Positions 21,247-52,313 of a stretch of DNA of 52,313 nucleotides are shown piece after piece. How positions within the stretch are numbered: the stretch's first letter is position 1; each line of letters opens with the position of its first letter. The notes below the pieces were generated by a model. The model ran no database searches. It was given only the letters and a program-made list of their open reading frames with translations, and was not told the DNA's origin. Source of the DNA: an uncultured Pelagibacteraceae bacterium (GTDB lineage Bacteria; Pseudomonadota; Alphaproteobacteria; Pelagibacterales; AG-422-B15). The position numbers and the translations under genes are program-made. The stretch lies in NCBI GenBank assembly GCA_902610585.1, contig CACLWE010000003.1:1-52313 (forward strand), given 5' to 3'.

Positions 21247-21828
21247 CTATTCGCTTAAAATAAATTCATTGCTTGAATCCTCTAACCAATCCCATAAATA
21301 ATCAGCAAAACTCCATCTAACTGATATATCAAAAACTAGGTCATCTGATAATCTGTCAATTAGGACAGTTGCCTTACTAATATATGATTGAGCGCAAGAA
21401 TTCCCTTTTGTGAGATATTGATCAAAATTAAGAGGGCAAGCTTTTGTTAAGACTTCAATACTTTTTGGGCCACTAAGCCTCATCGTCAAATAATAATCAG
21501 ATACATCGGTAATTGCGCAAAATAAATCTGAAAGTATTTCTCTTAATCCATTGATAACATTGTCTTTTTTTTCATCTTCACTTAATAACAAATATTCATT
21601 TGGTCCTAACCACAAAACTCTAGTCTCATTATTTCCAGTGACTTCACCAGCACTTTTTGGAAGGCTATATGTAAGGTATTTTTCTACTGCATCCCTTGCT
21701 TGCACATCATCTTCCTTTAATCTCACATTAATTTTTCCTAAAAAATCAATTAACTCTAATGAAATATTATCCGAAGCGATTTTTTCTTTTTGTGTAAGAG
21801 GGGAAAAAAATTGCGGTTGATTACTCAT
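21247..21828 (-). CDS. soxG: sarcosine oxidase subunit gamma
   Basis: This is the small structural subunit of heterotetrameric sarcosine oxidase. The 193-residue protein has the GcvT-like fold of the family, with LWLGPNEYLLL (about 69-79) and MRLSGPKSIEVLTKACPL (about 115-133) recognisable. It starts within the last codons of soxA: ATGAGTAA overlaps the soxA stop by eight bases. Its place at the end of a B-D-A-G order matches known sox operons. Confidence 0.93.
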   Translation of the reverse strand: MSNQPQFFSPLTQKEKIASDNISLELIDFLGKINVRLKEDDVQARDAVEKYLTYSLPKSAGEVTGNNETRVLWLGPNEYLLLSEDEKKDNVINGLREILSDLFCAITDVSDYYLTMRLSGPKSIEVLTKACPLNFDQYLTKGNSCAQSYISKATVLIDRLSDDLVFDISVRWSFADYLWDWLEDSSNEFILSE

Positions 21829-24826
21829 TATTTCTCTTACCTTCTTTGTCGTAGAATATTGTATCTGTCACAGTAGCTTCAATAATCTTGCCATTCATAA
21901 GTGGTACAACTACTTGTTCACCCATTTTACTAATGCCATCTTTTAACATCGCTAGAGCGATTGGATAACCTAAAGTAGGACTGTAATAACTAGATGTAAT
22001 ATGTCCTAACATTTTCATCGGTGGCTGTTTTAATGCCTTTTCAACGATATGTGATCCTTCTGGAAGAATTGTTTTTTTGTCATTAACTAAGAGTCCAACA
22101 AATTTTTTTCTATCATGTCTAATGGTATCAGATCTCGTATAGGATCTCTTTCCAAGAAAATCTTCTTTCTTCTTTGAAACGATCCAATCCATATTCATAT
22201 CACTTGGTGTGACACTTCCATCTGTATCTTGTCCAACGATTATAAATCCTTTCTCAGCTCGCAATACATGCATTGTCTCTGTACCATATGGAGTAATATT
22301 ATATTTTTTCCCATGTTCCATAAATTTTTCCCAAACATAACGTCCATAACGTGCAGGAACATTAACCTCATAGCTTAACTCTCCAGTAAAGCTAATTCTG
22401 AATATTCTTGCTTTAACTCCGCAAACTTCCCCTTCTCTAAATTTCATGAATGGAAAATTTTCTTTTGATAAATCAATATTTGTTAAATCTTCTAAAAATT
22501 TTCTTGAATTTGGTCCCGATATAGACAGCACAGCCCACTGTTCAGTAACTGAGGTGCAAAACACTTTCATATCAAGCCATTCTGTTTGTAGAAATTCTTC
22601 TAACCAGGACATTACTCTCGCAGCGCCACCAGTTGTCGTTGTCATGTGATAATGATTTTCACCCAACCTACTTGTAACCCCATCATCAAATATCATGCCA
22701 TGCTCATTGCACATTAATCCGTATCTGCATGAACCAATTTCAAGTTTTGACCAAGCGTTTGTATAAATCATATTGAGGAATTTGGCGGCATCAGGCCCTT
22801 GTAGATCAATCTTTCCAAGGGTTGATGCATCTAATATGCCCAGACTGTTCCTTACTGCTAAACATTCTCTTTTGACTGCTTGGTGAATATCCTCTTTATT
22901 TTGAGGAAAATAATATGGTCTTTTCCATTGCCCAACATCCTCAAATACAGCTTTATTTTCAACATGCCATTCATGTATTGATGTTTTTCGTACAGGGTCA
23001 AAAAGCTTGTCAACGCTTCTTCCGGCTATAGCTCCAATCGTCTGAGGAGCATAAGGCGGTCTAAAGGTTGTGTGACCTATTTCGTCGACAGGTTTATTAT
23101 GAATATGAGACATTAAAGCCAATGCATTAACATTGGATGTTTTTCCTTGGTCAGTGCCCATTCCAGTTGTTGTATATCTTTTTGTATGTTCTACACTTAT
23201 ATAACCCTCTCTTTGCGCTAGAAAAATATCTGCAGCAGTTACATCGTTTTGAAAATCAATGAAATGTTTAGATCCTTTTGTAACTTTTTTCTTACCTAAC
23301 ATATATGGCTCAACATCAGAATGTGTGAACTCTATCTCTTCTTTTCCAGTCCAATTAACTTTTTCAACGCTATTGAAATTAAGTTCATTAGCTGCTGCTA
23401 TTCCTGCCTCAAATGATTCATTTAGATTTTCTTGCAGATTAAACTGACCATTATTCGAACCAATTATTTTTTGGTTTTCGATGATTTTATCGGGAATAAA
23501 AGTATTTATCTTTAGATCATATTTTAGTTTACCTCTTGATTGGCTAAACAGTTGGACTGCTGGATTCCAACCACCAGACATTAATACGCAATCAGTATGA
23601 ATATTTTCAACCTCTCCTGTTAGTTGATTTTGATTTTTATCAACTTGCTGTATTTCTATTCTGTTTACTTTCTTATCGCCATAGGTCTTAATGACTGAAT
23701 ACGACTTAAATACTTTTATGTTAAGTAATTTACATTTTTCACTAATTCTTGCATTTAAAAGATCTCTTGTATCTACGACTGTTACTTTAGCCCCCTTTTC
23801 AACAAACTCAAAAGCGGTTAAATAAGCATGGTCATTGTTTGTAAAAAGTACAACTGACTTACCTGGTAATACTCCGTACCTAGAGAGATACTTTTGGCCT
23901 GCAGATGCCATCATGATACCAGGTCTATCATTATCAGCAAAAACTAGTGGTCTTTCAAAAGCTCCTTGTGCCAAAATAACTTTTTTTGAACGTATGCGCC
24001 AATATCTCTCTCTCGGTAAAGTATTTGAAAATTCCACATGGTGATTAGTAACTTTTTCTAAAGCCGTTAAATAGTTGTAATCATAATACCCCATCGCGGT
24101 AGTTCTTTTGAGAATTGTAACATTGGCTAAACCATCTAATTCTTCAATGATTTTCTTCAGCCACTTCTTTCCATCTTTCTCATTGATGCTAAAATTATAA
24201 TCTAGGAGATATCCTCCTAATTCTGGATTTTCATCTATAAGTAAGACTTTACAGCCCGAACGTCCTGCGCCCAAAGCTGCGAGTAAACCTGAGATACCAC
24301 CACCTACAATAGTGATATCAGTGTAATAAAATTTCTGTTCATATCTATCTGGGTTTTTTGCTGTAGGCGACTGACCTAACCCAGCAGCTTTTCTAATGAA
24401 ATGCTCATAAAATAACCACATGCTTGGAGGCCATTTAAATGTTTTATAATAAAAACCTGCAGGGAATATTCTTGATAGAAAGTTGTTCATTGCTCCAATG
24501 TCAAAATTAACTGATGGCCAACAATTTTGGCTAGAAGCTTCTAGACCTTCATAAAGCTCTACTTCTGTTGCACGAATATTTGGCTCTGTTCGTGCTCCAA
24601 GTCCTAATTGAACAATTGCATTTGGCTCCTCTGAACCTGCAGTTAATATTCCTCTTGCACGATGATACTTAAAACTTCTACCTATTAAATGAACATCGTT
24701 AGCTAATAACGCAGAAGCTAACGTATCACCCTGATACCCAATATAAGACTTGCCGTTAAAAACAAAGTTAATTGGCTTTTCCCTATTTACTTTACCGCCG
24801 TAAATTGTCCTATTTTGATTACTCAT
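21821..24826 (-). CDS. soxA: sarcosine oxidase subunit alpha
   Basis: This is the large subunit of the FAD/FMN sarcosine oxidase. It has an N-terminal 2Fe-2S-like fold domain (GDTLASALLANDVHLIGRSFKYHRARGI region), an NAD-binding domain (VGGGISGLLAALGAGRSG, about 180-197), and a C-terminal GcvT-like half (from about residue 610) that loads the released methyl carbon onto tetrahydrofolate as 5,10-methylene-THF. I chose the ATG at 24826 (1001 residues) because family members begin there and it overlaps the soxD stop by eight bases. An in-frame GTG at 24850 would add eight unrelated residues. With soxB, soxD and soxG it converts sarcosine to glycine, with H2O2 as the oxidised by-product. Confidence 0.96.
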   Translation of the reverse strand: MSNQNRTIYGGKVNREKPINFVFNGKSYIGYQGDTLASALLANDVHLIGRSFKYHRARGILTAGSEEPNAIVQLGLGARTEPNIRATEVELYEGLEASSQNCWPSVNFDIGAMNNFLSRIFPAGFYYKTFKWPPSMWLFYEHFIRKAAGLGQSPTAKNPDRYEQKFYYTDITIVGGGISGLLAALGAGRSGCKVLLIDENPELGGYLLDYNFSINEKDGKKWLKKIIEELDGLANVTILKRTTAMGYYDYNYLTALEKVTNHHVEFSNTLPRERYWRIRSKKVILAQGAFERPLVFADNDRPGIMMASAGQKYLSRYGVLPGKSVVLFTNNDHAYLTAFEFVEKGAKVTVVDTRDLLNARISEKCKLLNIKVFKSYSVIKTYGDKKVNRIEIQQVDKNQNQLTGEVENIHTDCVLMSGGWNPAVQLFSQSRGKLKYDLKINTFIPDKIIENQKIIGSNNGQFNLQENLNESFEAGIAAANELNFNSVEKVNWTGKEEIEFTHSDVEPYMLGKKKVTKGSKHFIDFQNDVTAADIFLAQREGYISVEHTKRYTTTGMGTDQGKTSNVNALALMSHIHNKPVDEIGHTTFRPPYAPQTIGAIAGRSVDKLFDPVRKTSIHEWHVENKAVFEDVGQWKRPYYFPQNKEDIHQAVKRECLAVRNSLGILDASTLGKIDLQGPDAAKFLNMIYTNAWSKLEIGSCRYGLMCNEHGMIFDDGVTSRLGENHYHMTTTTGGAARVMSWLEEFLQTEWLDMKVFCTSVTEQWAVLSISGPNSRKFLEDLTNIDLSKENFPFMKFREGEVCGVKARIFRISFTGELSYEVNVPARYGRYVWEKFMEHGKKYNITPYGTETMHVLRAEKGFIIVGQDTDGSVTPSDMNMDWIVSKKKEDFLGKRSYTRSDTIRHDRKKFVGLLVNDKKTILPEGSHIVEKALKQPPMKMLGHITSSYYSPTLGYPIALAMLKDGISKMGEQVVVPLMNGKIIEATVTDTIFYDKEGKRNNE

Positions 24827-25103
24827 TTGATATCTCTGGCTTCGCTTCACCCATTTTATATGTTTTTATTATTTGATCTGTGACAGTGTCTCTCATTACA
24901 TTAAACCATCGTCTGCATCCATGATCGTGAGTCCATCTTTCAAAATGGGTTCCTTTTGGATTTTCTCTGAAAAAAAGATACCTGCCCCATTCTTCATCAC
25001 TTATTTCAGATGGGTTATCTGGCCTTGCAATATGAGCTTCGCCGTGACATGTAAATTCTGTCTGATCTCTTTCCCCACAATATGGACAATTAATTATAAA
25101 CAT
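24819..25103 (-). CDS. soxD: sarcosine oxidase subunit delta
   Basis: This is the small zinc-binding subunit of sarcosine oxidase. At 94 residues it is normal length. The zinc ligands known from the family are all in place: Cys6, Cys9, His59 and Cys63 (CPYCG and THDHGC). It lies 11 bases after soxB, and its stop overlaps the start of soxA in ATGAGTAA. Confidence 0.95.
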   Translation of the reverse strand: MFIINCPYCGERDQTEFTCHGEAHIARPDNPSEISDEEWGRYLFFRENPKGTHFERWTHDHGCRRWFNVMRDTVTDQIIKTYKMGEAKPEISNE

Positions 25104-25114
25104 AAAAAAAATTA

Positions 25115-26356
25115 TTAATGAGCAACTGCTGCCGCTGCAGCTTCATCAACTAAAGCTCCTGAGAAATGTCTTTCTAATGAAAAAGGAGCTGCAATATCAT
25201 TTGGCTCTCCTCTAAAAACTGTCTCAGCAAATACATGAGCTGACCCTGGAGTTGCTTTGAATCCCCCAGTTCCCCAACCGCAGTTAATAAATAAGTCTTT
25301 TACAGGGGTCTTGCCTATAATTGGACTTCTATCAGGAGTTACATCTACGATTCCTCCCCAACTGCGAAGCATTTTAAGTCTTGAGAATATTGGAAATAAT
25401 TCAACTAGAGGAGCCATCATATGTTCAATCATGTCAAAAGATCCTCTCTGAGAATATGAGTTATAGGCATCAGAACCTGCTCCAACAACTAGTTCACCTT
25501 TATCTGATTGACTTACATAAACATGAACGGAGTTTGACATGATGACACAATCTAGAATTGGTTTAACAGGCTCGCTTACTAAAGCCTGTAAGGGTACAGA
25601 GTTTATTGGGAGAGAAAAACCTGCCATATTAGCTAATACTGAGGAGTGTCCAGCAGGTACGAGACCAACTTTATCAACTTTAACAGAACCTTTTGTTGTT
25701 TGCAATCCAACAACCTTGCCATTTGAAATATCTATTCCTTTAACCTCACAGTTTTGAATTATATCGACACCAAGATTTTCTGCCGCTCTTGCATACCCCC
25801 ATGCTACAGCGTCATGACGCGCCGTTCCCGCTCGCCTCTGAAGTAAAGCCCCTAAAACAGGATACCTGCCATTAACATTAATATGAGGTATTTTTTTTGC
25901 CACTTGATCCTGGTTTAGAATTTCAGCGTCAATACCATTTAAATAATTAGAATAACCTCTCCTTGTAATTTCTTGCATGTCATGAACCGAATGCGCTAAG
26001 TGAAATAAACCTCTTTGTGAAAACATTACATTAAAATTAAGCTCACTAGAAAGGCCTTCCCATAAATTAACAGCATGATTATAAAGAGCTGCACTTTCAT
26101 CCCATAAGTAATTAGATCTTATTATGGTTGTGTTACGTCCAGTATTACCCCCGCCAATCCATCCCTTCTCAAGAACAGCAATATTTTTAACACCAAATTC
26201 TTTTGCTAGGTAATAGGCAGTTCCTAATCCATGACCGCCACCTCCAACTATTACGACATCATATTCAGGTTTAAGATCAGGGCTGCTCCATGCTTTTTCC
26301 CAATTCTCATGATAAGAAAATGAATTCTTAACTAAATTGTATAGTGAGTATTTCAT
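25115..26356 (-). CDS. soxB: sarcosine oxidase subunit beta
   Basis: This is the catalytic flavin subunit that oxidises sarcosine. It has 413 residues with the FAD-binding GGGGHG at 38-43. His181, in GTARHDAVAWGYAR, matches the position of the His that carries covalent FMN in this family. It starts with an ATGA overlap on the end of the DadA-like gene, so the two are translationally coupled. It heads the B-D-A-G block and probably acts on sarcosine formed by the dehydrogenase encoded upstream in the same run. Confidence 0.96.
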   Translation of the reverse strand: MKYSLYNLVKNSFSYHENWEKAWSSPDLKPEYDVVIVGGGGHGLGTAYYLAKEFGVKNIAVLEKGWIGGGNTGRNTTIIRSNYLWDESAALYNHAVNLWEGLSSELNFNVMFSQRGLFHLAHSVHDMQEITRRGYSNYLNGIDAEILNQDQVAKKIPHINVNGRYPVLGALLQRRAGTARHDAVAWGYARAAENLGVDIIQNCEVKGIDISNGKVVGLQTTKGSVKVDKVGLVPAGHSSVLANMAGFSLPINSVPLQALVSEPVKPILDCVIMSNSVHVYVSQSDKGELVVGAGSDAYNSYSQRGSFDMIEHMMAPLVELFPIFSRLKMLRSWGGIVDVTPDRSPIIGKTPVKDLFINCGWGTGGFKATPGSAHVFAETVFRGEPNDIAAPFSLERHFSGALVDEAAAAAVAH

Positions 26357-33376: not shown

Positions 33377-34027
33377 TTATAGATTTTTTAAATCTTCAAC
33401 CATTTGTTCAATACTAGAACCAAACGGAAGTATGCTTCTTAATACATCATCATCATCAAAAATATAATAGAAAGCAGTATGCTGAACCATATAATTTTTT
33501 TCTTTATCACTTATTTCCTCAGATTGTTCAGATGTACCTAAATAATTTTGATGTTCTGAATTTGTTGCTGGCTCTACATGCACAAAAAAATCTTTCCATA
33601 TGGGCATTAGATTTTCATGTGTACCCGTCAAACCAATTAAATTATTGCTAAAGTTGCTGAGAAATTCTTTTAATCGGTCAGGGTTATCCCTAGCAGGATC
33701 AACTGTTACAAAGAAAAATTTTATATTTTCAATTGAATGGTTTTCTCTATTTAATTGATCAATGGCATTGCTCATAAGATTTGCACTGATTGGACAAATA
33801 TCTGGGCAATGTGTGAAACCAAAAAAAAATACTTTACTATATCCGCTGTAAGTTCTTTCGCTTACATCAACCCCAAAATGGTCAACAGCGGTAAATTTTA
33901 AATCAATGTTGTTTGATACCTCTGAAGTATTATCTTTAAATAATTCAGAAACTGCCCAACCGGCGACGACTGCTAATATAATAATTGAGAGGAATAAAAG
34001 TTGATTAACTTTTCTTTTTGAAATCAT
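33377..34027 (-). CDS. SCO1/SenC family copper chaperone
   Basis: A 216-residue membrane-anchored thioredoxin-fold protein. One N-terminal helix (about 10-28) holds it on the periplasmic face. The copper ligands are Cys74 and Cys78 in CPDIC, plus His183 in the MVQHTAFYY block. SCO proteins deliver copper to, or reduce, the CuA site of cytochrome c oxidase subunit II. The start overlaps the stop of the DmdA-like gene (TAATG), so it is translationally coupled to a methyltransferase gene, which is unusual. Confidence 0.93.
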   Translation of the reverse strand: MISKRKVNQLLFLSIIILAVVAGWAVSELFKDNTSEVSNNIDLKFTAVDHFGVDVSERTYSGYSKVFFFGFTHCPDICPISANLMSNAIDQLNRENHSIENIKFFFVTVDPARDNPDRLKEFLSNFSNNLIGLTGTHENLMPIWKDFFVHVEPATNSEHQNYLGTSEQSEEISDKEKNYMVQHTAFYYIFDDDDVLRSILPFGSSIEQMVEDLKNL

Positions 34028-35163
34028 TATTCCATTTTTTCAAGTCTAGAACTAAATGGTAAAGGAACAACTTCTACTTCTCGTTTTTCTCCATCATGAT
34101 CAATTTGATATACTTCTTCTGAATTAATCAAATCAATATCAATAAACCCTAAAGCAATATTGCACCCAAAGTTCGGGCTATAAATGCAGCTGGTTATAAA
34201 TCCTTTTTTTTCAGAGTTGTTATCAAACAACGGTATTCTTGTCATATTATATCCAATCTTCTTTCCTGAAATTTTAAAACCAGTGAATTGTTTTTTAATG
34301 CCTTCTTCTCTAATTTTTAAAAGAGCATCTTTTCCAACAAAATCTGCTTCTTGATCAAGATCATAAAATTTTGGTAGGTTTAGTTCTAAAGGGTTTTCAG
34401 CTAATGAGGTATCTCCTTGGTGAGAAATCATACCGGCTTCGATTCTATCAATTTGATTAGGACAACTTGGTACAATTTTAAACTCTTTTCCTGCTTCCAT
34501 TAGTGCATTCCATAATGCTGGACCATCTTCTTCTCTTGTTATATAAATTTCGTATCCAAATTGGTTACTCCAACCGCTGCGTGCAATGACGATATCTAGT
34601 CCAAATAAGTTTGTTTCGATAAATTGATAATATTTTAATCCCATAATAACTGGATCATCATTTGTAGCTTTTCTCATGAGTTCTTTTGAGCGCGGGCCTT
34701 GCAATGAAAGAGGACAAGCTTCGGGCTCTGAAATCTTAACATTAAACTTACCAGATAAAGCAACGCCTTTACACCACAGTATTGCATCAGAATCTGCAAT
34801 ACTCAGCCAGTACTTATTTTCATTAAACTTTAAAATTAATGGATCATTTATGATTCCACCATTTTCATCTGTCATAAATGCGTAACGACAAAACCCATCT
34901 TTAAAAGTTGATAGATTTCTTGGCGTCATATACTGAACAAATTTAGCAGCGTCTTCTCCAATAATTTCAATTTGTCTCTCCGCTGCCACATCCCATAATG
35001 TTACATCATTTATTAATGATTGGTATTCCTCCTCTGGAGTCGTGTAGCCAACAGGCATCGTCATATGGTTATAAGTTGTAAAATTGGTAGCGCCATATTT
35101 TAGCGTCTCTTCAAAGAAAGGTGATTTTCTAATCCTTGGGGTGTATATGATACCTTTTGGCAT
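34027..35163 (-). CDS. DmdA-like GcvT-family THF-dependent demethylase
   Basis: A 378-residue GcvT-fold protein. Motif order and length agree with DMSP demethylase DmdA of SAR11: YNHM near the N-terminus, LWDVAAERQIEI, WLSIADSDAILWCKG, ARSGWSNQFGYEIYI and CPNQIDRIEAG. DmdA moves a methyl group from dimethylsulfoniopropionate to tetrahydrofolate. The start at 35163 is set by AAGGAG eight bases upstream; an in-frame ATG at 35184 would contain that site. It leads the long minus-strand operon, opposite the homocysteine methyltransferase. Whether the substrate is DMSP or another methylated compound such as betaine is not settled by sequence, as many DmdA paralogues differ in substrate. Confidence 0.75.
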   Translation of the reverse strand: MPKGIIYTPRIRKSPFFEETLKYGATNFTTYNHMTMPVGYTTPEEEYQSLINDVTLWDVAAERQIEIIGEDAAKFVQYMTPRNLSTFKDGFCRYAFMTDENGGIINDPLILKFNENKYWLSIADSDAILWCKGVALSGKFNVKISEPEACPLSLQGPRSKELMRKATNDDPVIMGLKYYQFIETNLFGLDIVIARSGWSNQFGYEIYITREEDGPALWNALMEAGKEFKIVPSCPNQIDRIEAGMISHQGDTSLAENPLELNLPKFYDLDQEADFVGKDALLKIREEGIKKQFTGFKISGKKIGYNMTRIPLFDNNSEKKGFITSCIYSPNFGCNIALGFIDIDLINSEEVYQIDHDGEKREVEVVPLPFSSRLEKME

Positions 35164-35169
35164 TCTGTT

Positions 35170-35175
35170 CTCCTT
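35170..35175 (-). promoter_or_regulatory. ribosome-binding site of the DmdA-like gene
   Basis: AAGGAG seven to eight bases before the ATG at 35163. It decides against the upstream in-frame ATG at 35184, because that start would place the site inside the coding region. Confidence 0.75.
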
Positions 35176-35268
35176 AATGATCAAACTTTATAAACCATAA
35201 AGTCACAAAAAGTAAATCATTTTCCTACGTTTCTACTTACTAATTAAAACTATAAATGATACAAAATA

Positions 35269-50001: not shown

Positions 50002-51345
50002 CTAGCCTTTTACAACTTCTCTAGTATTCGCGTTGAAAGACTCAGTAAACGGAACATCAACTGTTACAGCGTCTACAGGTACTCCTGGCTCATCAGCATA
50101 AATATCTGGCAAATGAACTTTATATTTTTTACCTAATTCCCATTTTGGGAAACCATTTGAATTAAGGGTTCCATCATATGGTATATAGCCCATGGCTATA
50201 TTTTTTCCTTTTTCAGGATGATACCAAGGTGAAGTAATAAAACCACAAGGGTCTCCACCGTCACCAGGAGAGACAAGCCAAAAATCAGGCGCATACTCAT
50301 CAATTGGTTTGCCACCAATCTCAAATCCCACTAGCTGTAACTTGTATGGCTTATGGCCATCTTTCAGTTCAGCCTTCATCTTTTCAAGTGCTTGTTTACC
50401 AACATAATCTCCTTTTTTTGCCCACTCACCTTTTCCAGATAAAGAGACTTGATAGCCAAGATTGCATTGGAAAGGATTGTGCTCATGATCTAAGTCCTGA
50501 CCCCAAGATAAAATGCCTGCTTGTATTCTTCTGTGGTGAGCAGGCGCTATAACCATTAGATTATGTTTCTTTCCTGCTTCCAAAACAGCGTCCCACATAT
50601 CGTCGGCATAGAGTGTCGCATTTCGTAAATAAATTTCATAACCAGATTCGCCAGAGAAACCAGTTTGGGAAATCACGCAACTTCTACCACCAACCGTAAC
50701 TTCTGCTAGACCATAGAAAGGAATATTATCAAGATCAACTTGATCACCCACTAAGTCTTTCATCAAGGCAATGGCTTTTGGTCCTTGAATTTGAACAGGG
50801 CACGCATCGATCTCATCAATTTCTACATCAAATCTTTTATCAGCGTTTACGCCTTGCAAATAAAGTCCAATATCTGAATCTGACAGACTAAACCAAAACT
50901 CATCTTTCGAGATTCTTAAGAGAATAGGATCATTTAAGACTCCACCTTTATAGTTACATAATATTACGTACCTGGCTCTTAATGGTGATATCTTTGTGGC
51001 GTCTCTTGTAATTACATAGTCTGTAAATTTTTCAGCATCTGGACCAATTACACGTATTTGTCTTTCAACTGCAACATTCCACATAGTCACGTGGTTTTTA
51101 ATTGCTTCATATTCAACCATTGCTCCGCCATCTTCTGGCTTTACATAACCTCTAGGATGATAAATACGGTTATAAACTGTTGCTCTCCAGCATCCTGCTT
51201 CCATAGACTTATGCCAGTATGGTGACTTTCTTACTCTAGTTGAAATCAACATTTCAACCTTTGTTGGTCCACTTTGGCGTAAATTATAAGGAACATGTCT
51301 GTCACTTTGATCAACAGTAGTGTTATGTTCTATTTTTTTAGACAT
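50002..51345 (-). CDS. GcvT-family THF-dependent demethylase-like protein
   Basis: A 447-residue aminomethyltransferase-fold protein, longer than GcvT or DmdA and close in size to LigM/DesA O-demethylases. Landmarks are MWNVAVERQIRVIGPDA, LNDPILLRISKDEFWFSLSDSD, QTGFSGESGYEIYLR, HHRRIQAGILSWGQDLDHEHNPF and a C-terminal barrel. The family transfers a methyl group to tetrahydrofolate. The ATG overlaps the stop of the MetF-like gene by eight bases and has GGAG eight bases upstream, so the two are coupled. The methyl donor (methoxy-aromatic, sulfonium, quaternary amine or other) cannot be told. Confidence 0.8.
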   Translation of the reverse strand: MSKKIEHNTTVDQSDRHVPYNLRQSGPTKVEMLISTRVRKSPYWHKSMEAGCWRATVYNRIYHPRGYVKPEDGGAMVEYEAIKNHVTMWNVAVERQIRVIGPDAEKFTDYVITRDATKISPLRARYVILCNYKGGVLNDPILLRISKDEFWFSLSDSDIGLYLQGVNADKRFDVEIDEIDACPVQIQGPKAIALMKDLVGDQVDLDNIPFYGLAEVTVGGRSCVISQTGFSGESGYEIYLRNATLYADDMWDAVLEAGKKHNLMVIAPAHHRRIQAGILSWGQDLDHEHNPFQCNLGYQVSLSGKGEWAKKGDYVGKQALEKMKAELKDGHKPYKLQLVGFEIGGKPIDEYAPDFWLVSPGDGGDPCGFITSPWYHPEKGKNIAMGYIPYDGTLNSNGFPKWELGKKYKVHLPDIYADEPGVPVDAVTVDVPFTESFNANTREVVKG

Positions 51346-52096
51346 AGTAGTTCTCCTTTTCTAACCATTCGTTTGCTTTTTTTATTCCACCAAACGCATA
51401 AATGTGAAAGTTCTCGACATTTTCTTTTAATTCTTGAATTACATCATCAGGTGTCTGAACAGTCAATAAATCAAAAATTTTAGATGCATTTTTTTTTGCG
51501 AAATTAAGGGTATTTTTTAATCCAACAAATCCAGCGAATTTAACTAGTGTCTTCATAGAAGCTGGACCCGCAACGCCTACATGAACAGGAAGCGGTGCTA
51601 AGGAAATAAAAGATGATAATGCGTCCGTATCTTGCGTCCACTGTGTTACAATGTAGTCAGCAAACGGGGCCTTTGATTTCATTGCTTCGTCAATAGCTGT
51701 ATCGCTCATATTTGGAGATCCTTCAGGGTGACCAGCAATACCTATTCTCATTCCATCAAACAATCCAGTTTCTATAAGTTGTAGTGAACAATGATATTTT
51801 CCTAATATATCTCGATCACCACCAATTATTAAAACTTGTTTAACTCCAGCCTCTTTAACTTGCTCAACATAAGACTTTAACATATCTAAATCAGTAATTG
51901 AACGTGCTGGAAAATGAGGAATAGGATTATAGCCTGCACTAGCTAAAGCTTTTGTTTGTTCAATAACATCAAGATAACTTGTGCCAGGCAAAAGGGTAAT
52001 ATAAATATCAGTGAGTTTTGGTAAATCAGATAGATTTGTCCTCGTAGTAACTTCTAACGAAAAATTTACATTTCCCATAATACTGTAAATGAGCAT
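51338..52096 (-). CDS. MetF-like methylenetetrahydrofolate reductase family protein
   Basis: A 252-residue TIM-barrel protein of the MTHFR family, shorter than E. coli MetF (296). The catalytic Glu is visible in SLEVTTR near the start and the folate/flavin Asp in IIGGDRD. Coupled to a demethylase, it most likely runs from 5-methyl-THF to 5,10-methylene-THF, not in the biosynthetic direction. The start is uncertain: ATG at 52096 or at 52078, neither with a clear Shine-Dalgarno. The 171-base gap upstream (52097-52267) separates it from a divergent formate ligase gene and holds nothing else I can name. Confidence 0.82.
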   Translation of the reverse strand: MLIYSIMGNVNFSLEVTTRTNLSDLPKLTDIYITLLPGTSYLDVIEQTKALASAGYNPIPHFPARSITDLDMLKSYVEQVKEAGVKQVLIIGGDRDILGKYHCSLQLIETGLFDGMRIGIAGHPEGSPNMSDTAIDEAMKSKAPFADYIVTQWTQDTDALSSFISLAPLPVHVGVAGPASMKTLVKFAGFVGLKNTLNFAKKNASKIFDLLTVQTPDDVIQELKENVENFHIYAFGGIKKANEWLEKENYYV

Positions 52097-52267
52097 ATCG
52101 CTTAAGCCACGCGAATTTTAAATTGCACTGCTTGGCTTAATTTTGCAGCGCTATTTGAGTCTCCTATTTCAAAATTTATTTAAAAATTAGTTCTATAGCA
52201 ATACATTTTTGTAGACTTCAACCAGTAAAGTTCTTAAGTTGTTTAGGTTTTTAACAATTGGATCTTT

Positions 52268-52313
52268 ATGGCTGTACTCTCAGATATTGAAATTGCTAGA
52301 GAAAATAGCATGG
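52268..52313 (+). CDS. fhs: probable formate-tetrahydrofolate ligase, first 15 codons only
   Basis: An ATG at 52268 preceded by GGAT opens a frame that reads MAVLSDIEIARENSM before the window ends. The SDIEIA start is typical of the N-terminus of 10-formyl-THF synthetase, which begins with such a block before the catalytic core. The call is based on a short match but fits the context: it is divergent from the MetF-like and GcvT-like genes, with which it would complete a methyl-to-formate route. Confidence 0.65.
   Translation, partial: MAVLSDIEIARENSM

Follow-up and report, generated by a model that had tools for sequence, protein, structure and literature searches.

A GcvT/DmdA-superfamily gene coupled to a catabolic-type metF in SAR11 bacteria, a possible folate-dependent demethylase of glycine betaine

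A stretch of 52,313 bp of DNA from an uncultured Pelagibacteraceae bacterium (assembly GCA_902610585.1, contig CACLWE010000003.1), called the window in the following, was analysed; it covers positions 1-52313 of contig C3 of a 1.21 Mb genome in 25 contigs. Close to its right end lies a gene pair, P1 and P2, which encodes a protein of the GcvT/DmdA superfamily and a short methylenetetrahydrofolate reductase, MetF (Table 1). The pair is real, highly conserved and was noted before; its third partner is lineage-specific. As the best reading, we tentatively propose that P1 catalyses the first demethylation of glycine betaine (GBT) with folate and in a cobalamin-free way, the substrate being taken from the gene company only. 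The methyl donor would be a betaine-type osmolyte, GBT being the likeliest, and P1 would pass its methyl group straight to tetrahydrofolate (THF), yielding dimethylglycine and 5-methyl-THF without cobalamin. P2 would work in the oxidative direction and convert 5-methyl-THF to 5,10-methylene-THF, whereupon FolD and then Fhs would release formate and make ATP. The remaining two methyl groups would be removed by dimethylglycine dehydrogenase (DMGDH) and sarcosine oxidase. The methyl transfer to THF and the directions of MetF and Fhs are those expected from the respective protein families.

The genes, their order, their conservation and their co-location were read directly from the genomes. A preliminary description of the window, made from the letters alone, had proposed a GcvT-family protein coupled to a short MetF, with the start of fhs diverging from both. 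The coupling was confirmed, as the open reading frames (ORFs) of P1 and P2 overlap by 8 bp. Extension of the contig identified the ORF at the right edge as fhs (also L002:3269-4936): it is full length, and the match to PF01268 (C3:52280-53932; 860.9 bits, above the cut-off) covers model positions 2-556 of 556 and contains no stops. Genes for a methyl transfer onto folate followed by oxidation toward formate, as had been suggested, are thus supported. A simple scan of the 171-bp gap between metF and fhs found no σ70-like site, and Rfam gave no match in the window at gathering scores. Inspection by eye, in place of a profile search, recognised neither gcvH nor gcvP among the ORFs listed for 6 kb to the left and 16 kb to the right of P1.

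Table 1. Features of the window considered in the analysis (positions refer to the window unless stated otherwise).
Feature	Position	Strand	Basis or remark
P1, GcvT/DmdA superfamily, likely folate-dependent demethylase, 447 aa	50002..51345	-	Profile scores, PDB match, tree; matches SAR11_1265
P2, short catabolic-type MetF, 252 aa	51338..52096	-	Pfam MTHFR, PDB 7xg9, motifs; matches SAR11_1264
Divergent intergenic region, metF to fhs, 171 bp	52097..52267	.	No σ70-like site in a simple scan
fhs start (46 bases in the window), formate-THF ligase, 555 aa	52268..52313, runs to contig position 53935	+	PF01268
DMGDH-type FAD/GcvT fusion, 818 aa	28663..31119	-	~19 kb from P1; possible downstream step
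Sarcosine oxidase alpha subunit SoxA	21821..24850	-	Above its cut-off; possible downstream step
DmdA-like paralogue, separate enzyme	34027..35184	-	Groups with DmdA in the tree; possible rival for the P1 substrate

P1 matched the Pfam family GCV_T (140 bits, E 7e-41). It scored 234.2 bits with the NCBIfam model for DmdA (NF009133; cut-off 410), 148 and 126 bits with two GcvT models (cut-offs 300 and 235.85), 148 bits with the trimethylamine N-oxide (TMAO) demethylase model (cut-off 1100), 46 bits with DesA (cut-off 800) and 37.0 bits with LigM (NF047885; cut-off 580), each value being below the respective cut-off. In a PDB search the best match was DmdA (3tfh), with E 1.3e-45 for the single sequence and E 1.5e-72 for a 14-row profile; two LigM entries ranked last among the 20 listed. 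A phylogeny of 60 rows was computed with IQ-TREE, in which P1 falls into a separate clade next to DmdA, with 27 rows at a support of 99/97, or 26 rows at 100/100 when L045 is left out. This clade is nested in a DmdA-like superclade of 48 rows (100/100), within which the branch order was not resolved. The DmdA set (14 rows, 98/98) stands apart from the P1 clade and includes the paralogue of the window, and LigM (four rows) forms its own branch (100/100). Membership of P1 in DmdA was therefore rejected by score and by its separate clade, and membership in LigM or DesA by score and tree.

The P1 clade carries a nearly invariant N-terminal block, VDQSDRxVPxNLRQSG, which belongs to a set of 46 positions; their residues are fixed or nearly so across the 26 P1 rows, but rare among 21 rows of DmdA and DmdA-like proteins. 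Position 230 is F in 26 of 26 P1 rows (L045 apart, which has W), and W in nine and Y in three of 12 DmdA rows, and is thus a weak marker. The tryptophan compared here is the one, W171, that is reported to contact dimethylsulfoniopropionate (DMSP) in DmdA (PMC7487153); this residue was taken as W197 of P. ubique. An AlphaFold model of P1 (23 rows, 84-99% identical) reached a mean predicted local distance difference test (pLDDT) of 55.5 and was not used.

According to the preliminary description, the three genes resembled ligM-metF-ligH of Sphingobium sp. SYK-6. An O-demethylase of the LigM/DesA kind, acting on methoxy-aromatics, would keep the same sort of gene company (MetF, and Fhs in some lineages), but such a function of P1 is extremely improbable, given the model scores and the separate LigM branch; moreover, the LigM model had no match at E 1e-60 in the genome of the window. 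The kinship of P1 to LigM had to be abandoned, whereas the comparison is sound for the catabolic MetF, and the substrate is probably non-aromatic, as had been expected.

P2 was barely above the cut-off of Pfam MTHFR (27.8 against 24 bits, E 2e-6) and did not reach that of the canonical biosynthetic MetF (TIGR00676; 22.8 bits, cut-off 293.7). Its sole clear relative in the PDB is the 5,10-methylene-THF reductase 7xg9 (E 6e-32), which we take to be the MetF of SYK-6. Relatives on plasmids (100 records, all below 60% identity) include the metF of M. extorquens CM4 on pCMU01 and one on a Sphingobium plasmid, which adjoins a gcvT-family gene, purU and folD. Against the canonical model, these two proteins scored 37 and 34 bits, respectively, and one haloarchaeal and two alphaproteobacterial copies were likewise far under the cut-off. 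Eight copies have motifs in common. Judged by sequence kinship and by its place beside a methyl-transfer gene, P2 fits a catabolic-type MetF as in SYK-6 and CM4.

The tight coupling to MetF also bears on a further role, in which P1 would transfer no whole methyl group but, in the manner of GcvT or of the DMGDH folate domain, would make or use 5,10-methylene-THF and help to catch formaldehyde or aminomethyl groups. P1 does belong to the GcvT superfamily, and its F at position 230 is also found in two of five folate domains of DMGDH/SoxA. However, the coupling makes most sense with 5-methyl-THF as the product, and P1 groups with DmdA-like proteins (100/100) and not with GcvT or DMGDH domains, so that this role is regarded as improbable.

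The locus of P1 was searched in 84,980 species genomes, and the best 80 of at least 581 confirmed stretches were kept; the reach of P1 beyond SAR11 was taken from other searches. All of these 80 loci belong to Pelagibacteraceae, Pelagibacter or Pelagibacterales, and the closest is 99% identical in P1, which agrees with the marine oligotroph assumed before. A set of 97 related genomes was used in addition, 53 from the family of the window and 44 from the family that includes Pelagibacter. P1 was found in 80 of them at E 1e-90 (47/53 and 33/44, respectively), and its identity to the Pelagibacter-family copies is 82-87%. Across the class, 13 of 289 sampled genomes contain P1, including the window's own and one relative. 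MetF lies immediately upstream of P1 on the same strand in all 76 SAR11 loci with at least 800 bp of upstream sequence (12 of the window's type and 64 of the Pelagibacter type). Where the upstream sequence reaches 2600 bp or more, a divergent fhs adjoins metF in 10/10 loci of the window's type versus 0/58 of the Pelagibacter type; hence, fhs is a lineage-specific neighbour outside the constant core. In another genome (G341, locus L060), P1, MetF and Fhs are encoded on one strand, followed by a DMGDH-type gene. P2-type MetF (E 1e-8) was present in 17 of 20 P1-bearing genomes (not found in G215, G279 and G352) and in none of six chosen genomes without P1, of which two (G067 and G090) have DmdA over the cut-off. 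In this small genome set, MetF tracks P1, not DmdA.

SAR11_1265 was described as a gcvT-like aminomethyltransferase with unassigned substrate, close to DmdA in a tree and adjoining the metF SAR11_1264 (PMC3160333). Thus, the uncharacterised methyl-oxidation cassette of the preliminary description is not new as a pair, having been described in 2011, but its substrate is uncharacterised in the literature searched: no assignment was found there, and this literature largely excludes subscription papers. In stationary phase, transcripts of SAR11_1265 and SAR11_1264 were at 0.10-0.20 of the control and the proteins at ~1.3-1.5 (2016; PMC5069961). A metagenome study of 2013 counted an 'aminomethyltransferase unknown substrate' to the core of SAR11 subgroup 1a, without saying which of the two such genes is meant (PMC3686209). 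New here are the constancy of MetF, the cases of P1 without DmdA, the company of DMGDH, and the haloarchaeal orthologues with MetF and oxidoreductases dependent on flavin adenine dinucleotide (FAD).

Concerning DMSP, the window contains a second, DmdA-like gene. This paralogue, presumably of the SAR11_1303 type, scored 354.9 bits against the DmdA cut-off of 410, groups with DmdA (98/98) and has kept the tryptophan. DmdA over the cut-off was found in 37/44 genomes of the Pelagibacter family and in 0/53 of the window's family, among them the near-complete G040 (100%), G019 (99%) and G043 (98%); because of this, the paralogue may be the DMSP demethylase of the window's family. Sun et al. 2011 speculated that SAR11_1265 takes the second methyl group in DMSP breakdown (PMC3160333), i.e. 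that of methylmercaptopropionate (MMPA). The relation of P1 to DmdA (234 bits, shared superclade) and the presence of DmdA over the cut-off in all 33 P1-positive Pelagibacter-family genomes would suit this function. Against it stand the P1 genes in 47 genomes of the window's family, where no DmdA exceeds the cut-off, although the DmdA-like paralogue might serve there. Furthermore, in 3/13 genomes (G171, G341 and G380) the DmdA model matches no protein other than P1 at E 1e-60, P2-type MetF was not found in the two genomes having DmdA but lacking P1, and ten haloarchaeal loci (54-57% identity) show folate and FAD oxidoreductase genes and, by annotation, no sulfur gene. A second DMSP demethylation by P1 is therefore considered distinctly improbable.

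The proposal of GBT as the substrate follows from the genes for the dimethylglycine and sarcosine steps around P1. FAO_M, the middle domain of DMGDH and sarcosine dehydrogenase, was used as marker and was detected in all 19 P1-bearing genomes tested, with one to four copies each. Its distance from P1 is at most 8 kb in 10/19 genomes (expected 0.37) and at most 22 kb in 14/19. Taking one genome per genus, 7/15 have it within 8 kb (expected 0.28; tail 3e-9 under random placement); this tail is too small, since metabolic genes tend to cluster in general and such a model takes no account of it, an objection that the contrast with DmdA answers in part. Nine of the 19 genomes have DmdA over the cut-off; in none of them do DmdA and FAO_M lie 22 kb or less apart, whereas P1 is within 8 kb of FAO_M in five. 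Besides the operon-like order P1-MetF-Fhs-DMGDH of L060, two loci (L052 and L053) show an operon-like run on one strand of SoxB-size, SoxD-size and SoxA-size genes, a 173-aa gene, DMGDH, MetF and P1; DMGDH and MetF of L052 were checked, as was FAO_M in both, and the remaining genes were named from cluster and size. Co-occurrence of P1 and DMGDH in the Pelagibacter family (33/33 versus 5/11, p 6.5e-5) was discarded as evidence, since DmdA behaves nearly alike (33/33 versus 4/11). Co-location with the dimethylglycine and sarcosine steps, as looked for in a glycine betaine demethylase, was seen across genera and in haloarchaea, and in the window the DMGDH gene is ~19 kb off. A sarcosine oxidase set is also present in the window (21247-26356), of which SoxA exceeds its cut-off and SoxG and SoxB were named from position and size.

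For the haloarchaea, 72,556 plasmid records were searched at the protein level; 788 had a match and the best 20 were listed. Among these listed matches, 14 haloarchaeal megaplasmid records (H1-H14) carry P1 orthologues of 54-57% identity, and two further ones (H15 and H16) carry homologues at 49%. Ten loci of H1-H14 and both 49% loci were read; left out were H8 (Har. sinaiiensis) and H6, H11 and H13, which are further records of species already read. In H14, the match to P1 is split in two and the copy carries no annotation; P1 of L011 was placed from the annotation. All ten loci have an annotated methylene-THF reductase close to P1, and nine (all but L011) have an annotated FAD-dependent oxidoreductase there; a check of four of these oxidoreductases showed the DAO-FAO_M-GCV_T architecture of DMGDH. 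The ten loci further contain genes for dihydrofolate reductase (five), serine hydroxymethyltransferase (glyA; four), Fhs (two), FolD (two), threonine/serine ammonia-lyase (two), formate dehydrogenase (one) and a BCCT transporter (one). Taken together, with no single locus being complete, these genes read as a putative pathway from GBT via dimethylglycine, sarcosine and glycine to serine and pyruvate, in which the one-carbon units would be burned to CO2. Dimethylglycine-oxidase-like genes near BCCT transporters were reported for ten haloarchaeal genomes in 2011 and the use of GBT was raised as a possibility; two haloarchaea gained nothing from betaine in tests cited there, and the accessible part of this paper names no demethylase for the first step (PMC3102087). 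A cobalamin-independent GBT-to-THF methyltransferase common to SAR11 and haloarchaea is suggested with somewhat greater reserve than the demethylation of GBT by P1 as such.

Several findings weigh against GBT as the substrate of P1. We know of no direct methyl transfer from a quaternary ammonium compound to THF. Five of the 19 P1 genomes are without FAO_M within 22 kb, and among SAR11 loci that extend 9 kb to either side DMGDH is in reach in 20/28 of the Pelagibacter type and in 0/5 of the window's type. Among the relatives, seven of the 80 P1-positive genomes are without FAO_M (all from the window's family, 55-93% complete), and 10/17 P1-negative genomes have it. Only 3 kb separate the DMGDH gene of the window from the DmdA-like paralogue; the latter moreover stands beside an apparent betaine-type ABC transporter (named by eye) and is nearer to it than P1. 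The two haloarchaeal homologues at 49% (L013 and L224) have no MetF or DMGDH-type FAD oxidoreductase nearby. Finally, the genome of the window encodes a SAR11-type Bhmt (L230; 46% identical to the copy of G058) directly before another DMGDH, so that GBT already has a route there, and a Rieske gene is frequent near P1 (see below).

Regarding the two 49% homologues themselves, they adjoin genes for a helix-turn-helix protein and an MFS transporter with sulfur-type genes near, and probably have another function. The region around the Bhmt gene of the window's genome (G000:C7:58000-70000) contains BKACE, 3HCDH, TauD/GBBH and an M24 peptidase, followed by the SAR11-type Bhmt and DMGDH, with ABC transporter genes (by eye) alongside; this operon reads as one for gamma-butyrobetaine or carnitine breakdown. 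In G058, a genome of the Pelagibacter family, an apparent bhmT (L232:11332-12393) adjoins osmC and ordL, a gene order that is also described for Ca. P. ubique HTCC1062. The Bhmt model NF005718 gave a match at E 1e-15 in 19/26 genomes and exceeded its cut-off in 0/26. As it missed the Bhmt of G058, the model does not recognise the SAR11 type and calls of absence made with it are unsafe; absence of Bhmt was consequently dropped as an argument for P1.

Of the 58 Pelagibacter-type loci with at least 2600 bp of upstream sequence, 51 have a gene for a Rieske oxygenase of the GbcA kind no more than 10 kb from P1 (divergent beside metF in 19, ~3 kb from P1 in 12 and at 3.7-9.2 kb in 20; none in reach in seven). 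The GbcA-like gene reached 125 bits (cut-off 670); GbcA itself was over the cut-off in 0/26 genomes, with weaker Rieske relatives in 17/26. One example near metF-P1 is L046:11261-12490. In G112, a DmdA-like gene, a P2-type MetF and a GbcA-like Rieske gene are located within 3.4 kb (C83:2443-5806; parts in L181 and L213), a parallel cassette with another paralogue.

The frequency of the Rieske gene may point to a different quaternary amine, which leads to the second-ranked explanation: the same chemistry on another quaternary or N-methylated substrate (stachydrine, carnitine, choline, homarine or TMAO), ending in dimethylglycine or a like amine. It draws further support from a creatininase-family gene in 6/10 haloarchaeal loci and from the Bhmt which the genome of the window already has for GBT. 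On the other hand, the recurring downstream genes (DMGDH and SoxA) fit the series from GBT via dimethylglycine to sarcosine best, and apart from one Rieske gene in the haloarchaeal locus L012, no gene for another substrate was seen to recur in the bacterial as well as the archaeal loci read. On this balance, another amine is possible but on the unlikely side, and demethylation of GBT by P1 remains the preferred assignment.

If this assignment is true, P1 would add a fourth way of opening GBT breakdown to those by GbcAB, Bhmt and MtgBCD. It would also overturn the proposal that SAR11 uses Bhmt alone. The Bhmt route would tie each GBT to one homocysteine, and a folate demethylase with its own MetF would explain a net energy gain from GBT. 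P1 would then be a marker gene for GBT flux which joins marine bacteria with haloarchaea.

Compared with known systems, the closest solved relative of P1 is DmdA (PDB 3tfh), which is from the same superclade and moves a methyl group to THF; the two differ in their separate clades and at position 230, where the F of P1 contrasts with W in 9/12 DmdA rows. LigM/DesA with MetF and LigH of Sphingobium SYK-6 follow the same gene logic of a demethylase, MetF and formate-THF ligase, but P1 is outside the LigM family. SAR11_1265/SAR11_1264 of Ca. Pelagibacter ubique is the same pair as P1/P2, a GcvT-like gene beside metF; its fhs is SAR11_1285 (PMC3160333), some 20 genes off, whereas fhs diverges from metF in the lineage of the window (10/10 loci). 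In Ruegeria pomeroyi, GBT is demethylated by the cobalamin-dependent MtgBCD (2025; PMC12478193), growth on N-osmolytes including GBT induces a MetF2 more than any other protein (PMC12478193), and deletion of fhs leaves GBT degradation incomplete (PMC4744692). The former study reports MtgC as absent from Pelagibacteraceae, proposes Bhmt for SAR11 and describes it as lacking experimental validation there (PMC12478193). The net reaction proposed for MtgBCD with MetF2 is the same as that suggested for P1 and P2, GBT and THF giving dimethylglycine and 5-methyl-THF, on which MetF then acts (PMC12478193). P1, MetF and Fhs would thereby give SAR11 the net chemistry of R. pomeroyi, with the difference that MtgBCD is a cobalamin-dependent enzyme of three parts, whereas P1 is proposed to be a single methyltransferase that needs no cobalamin.

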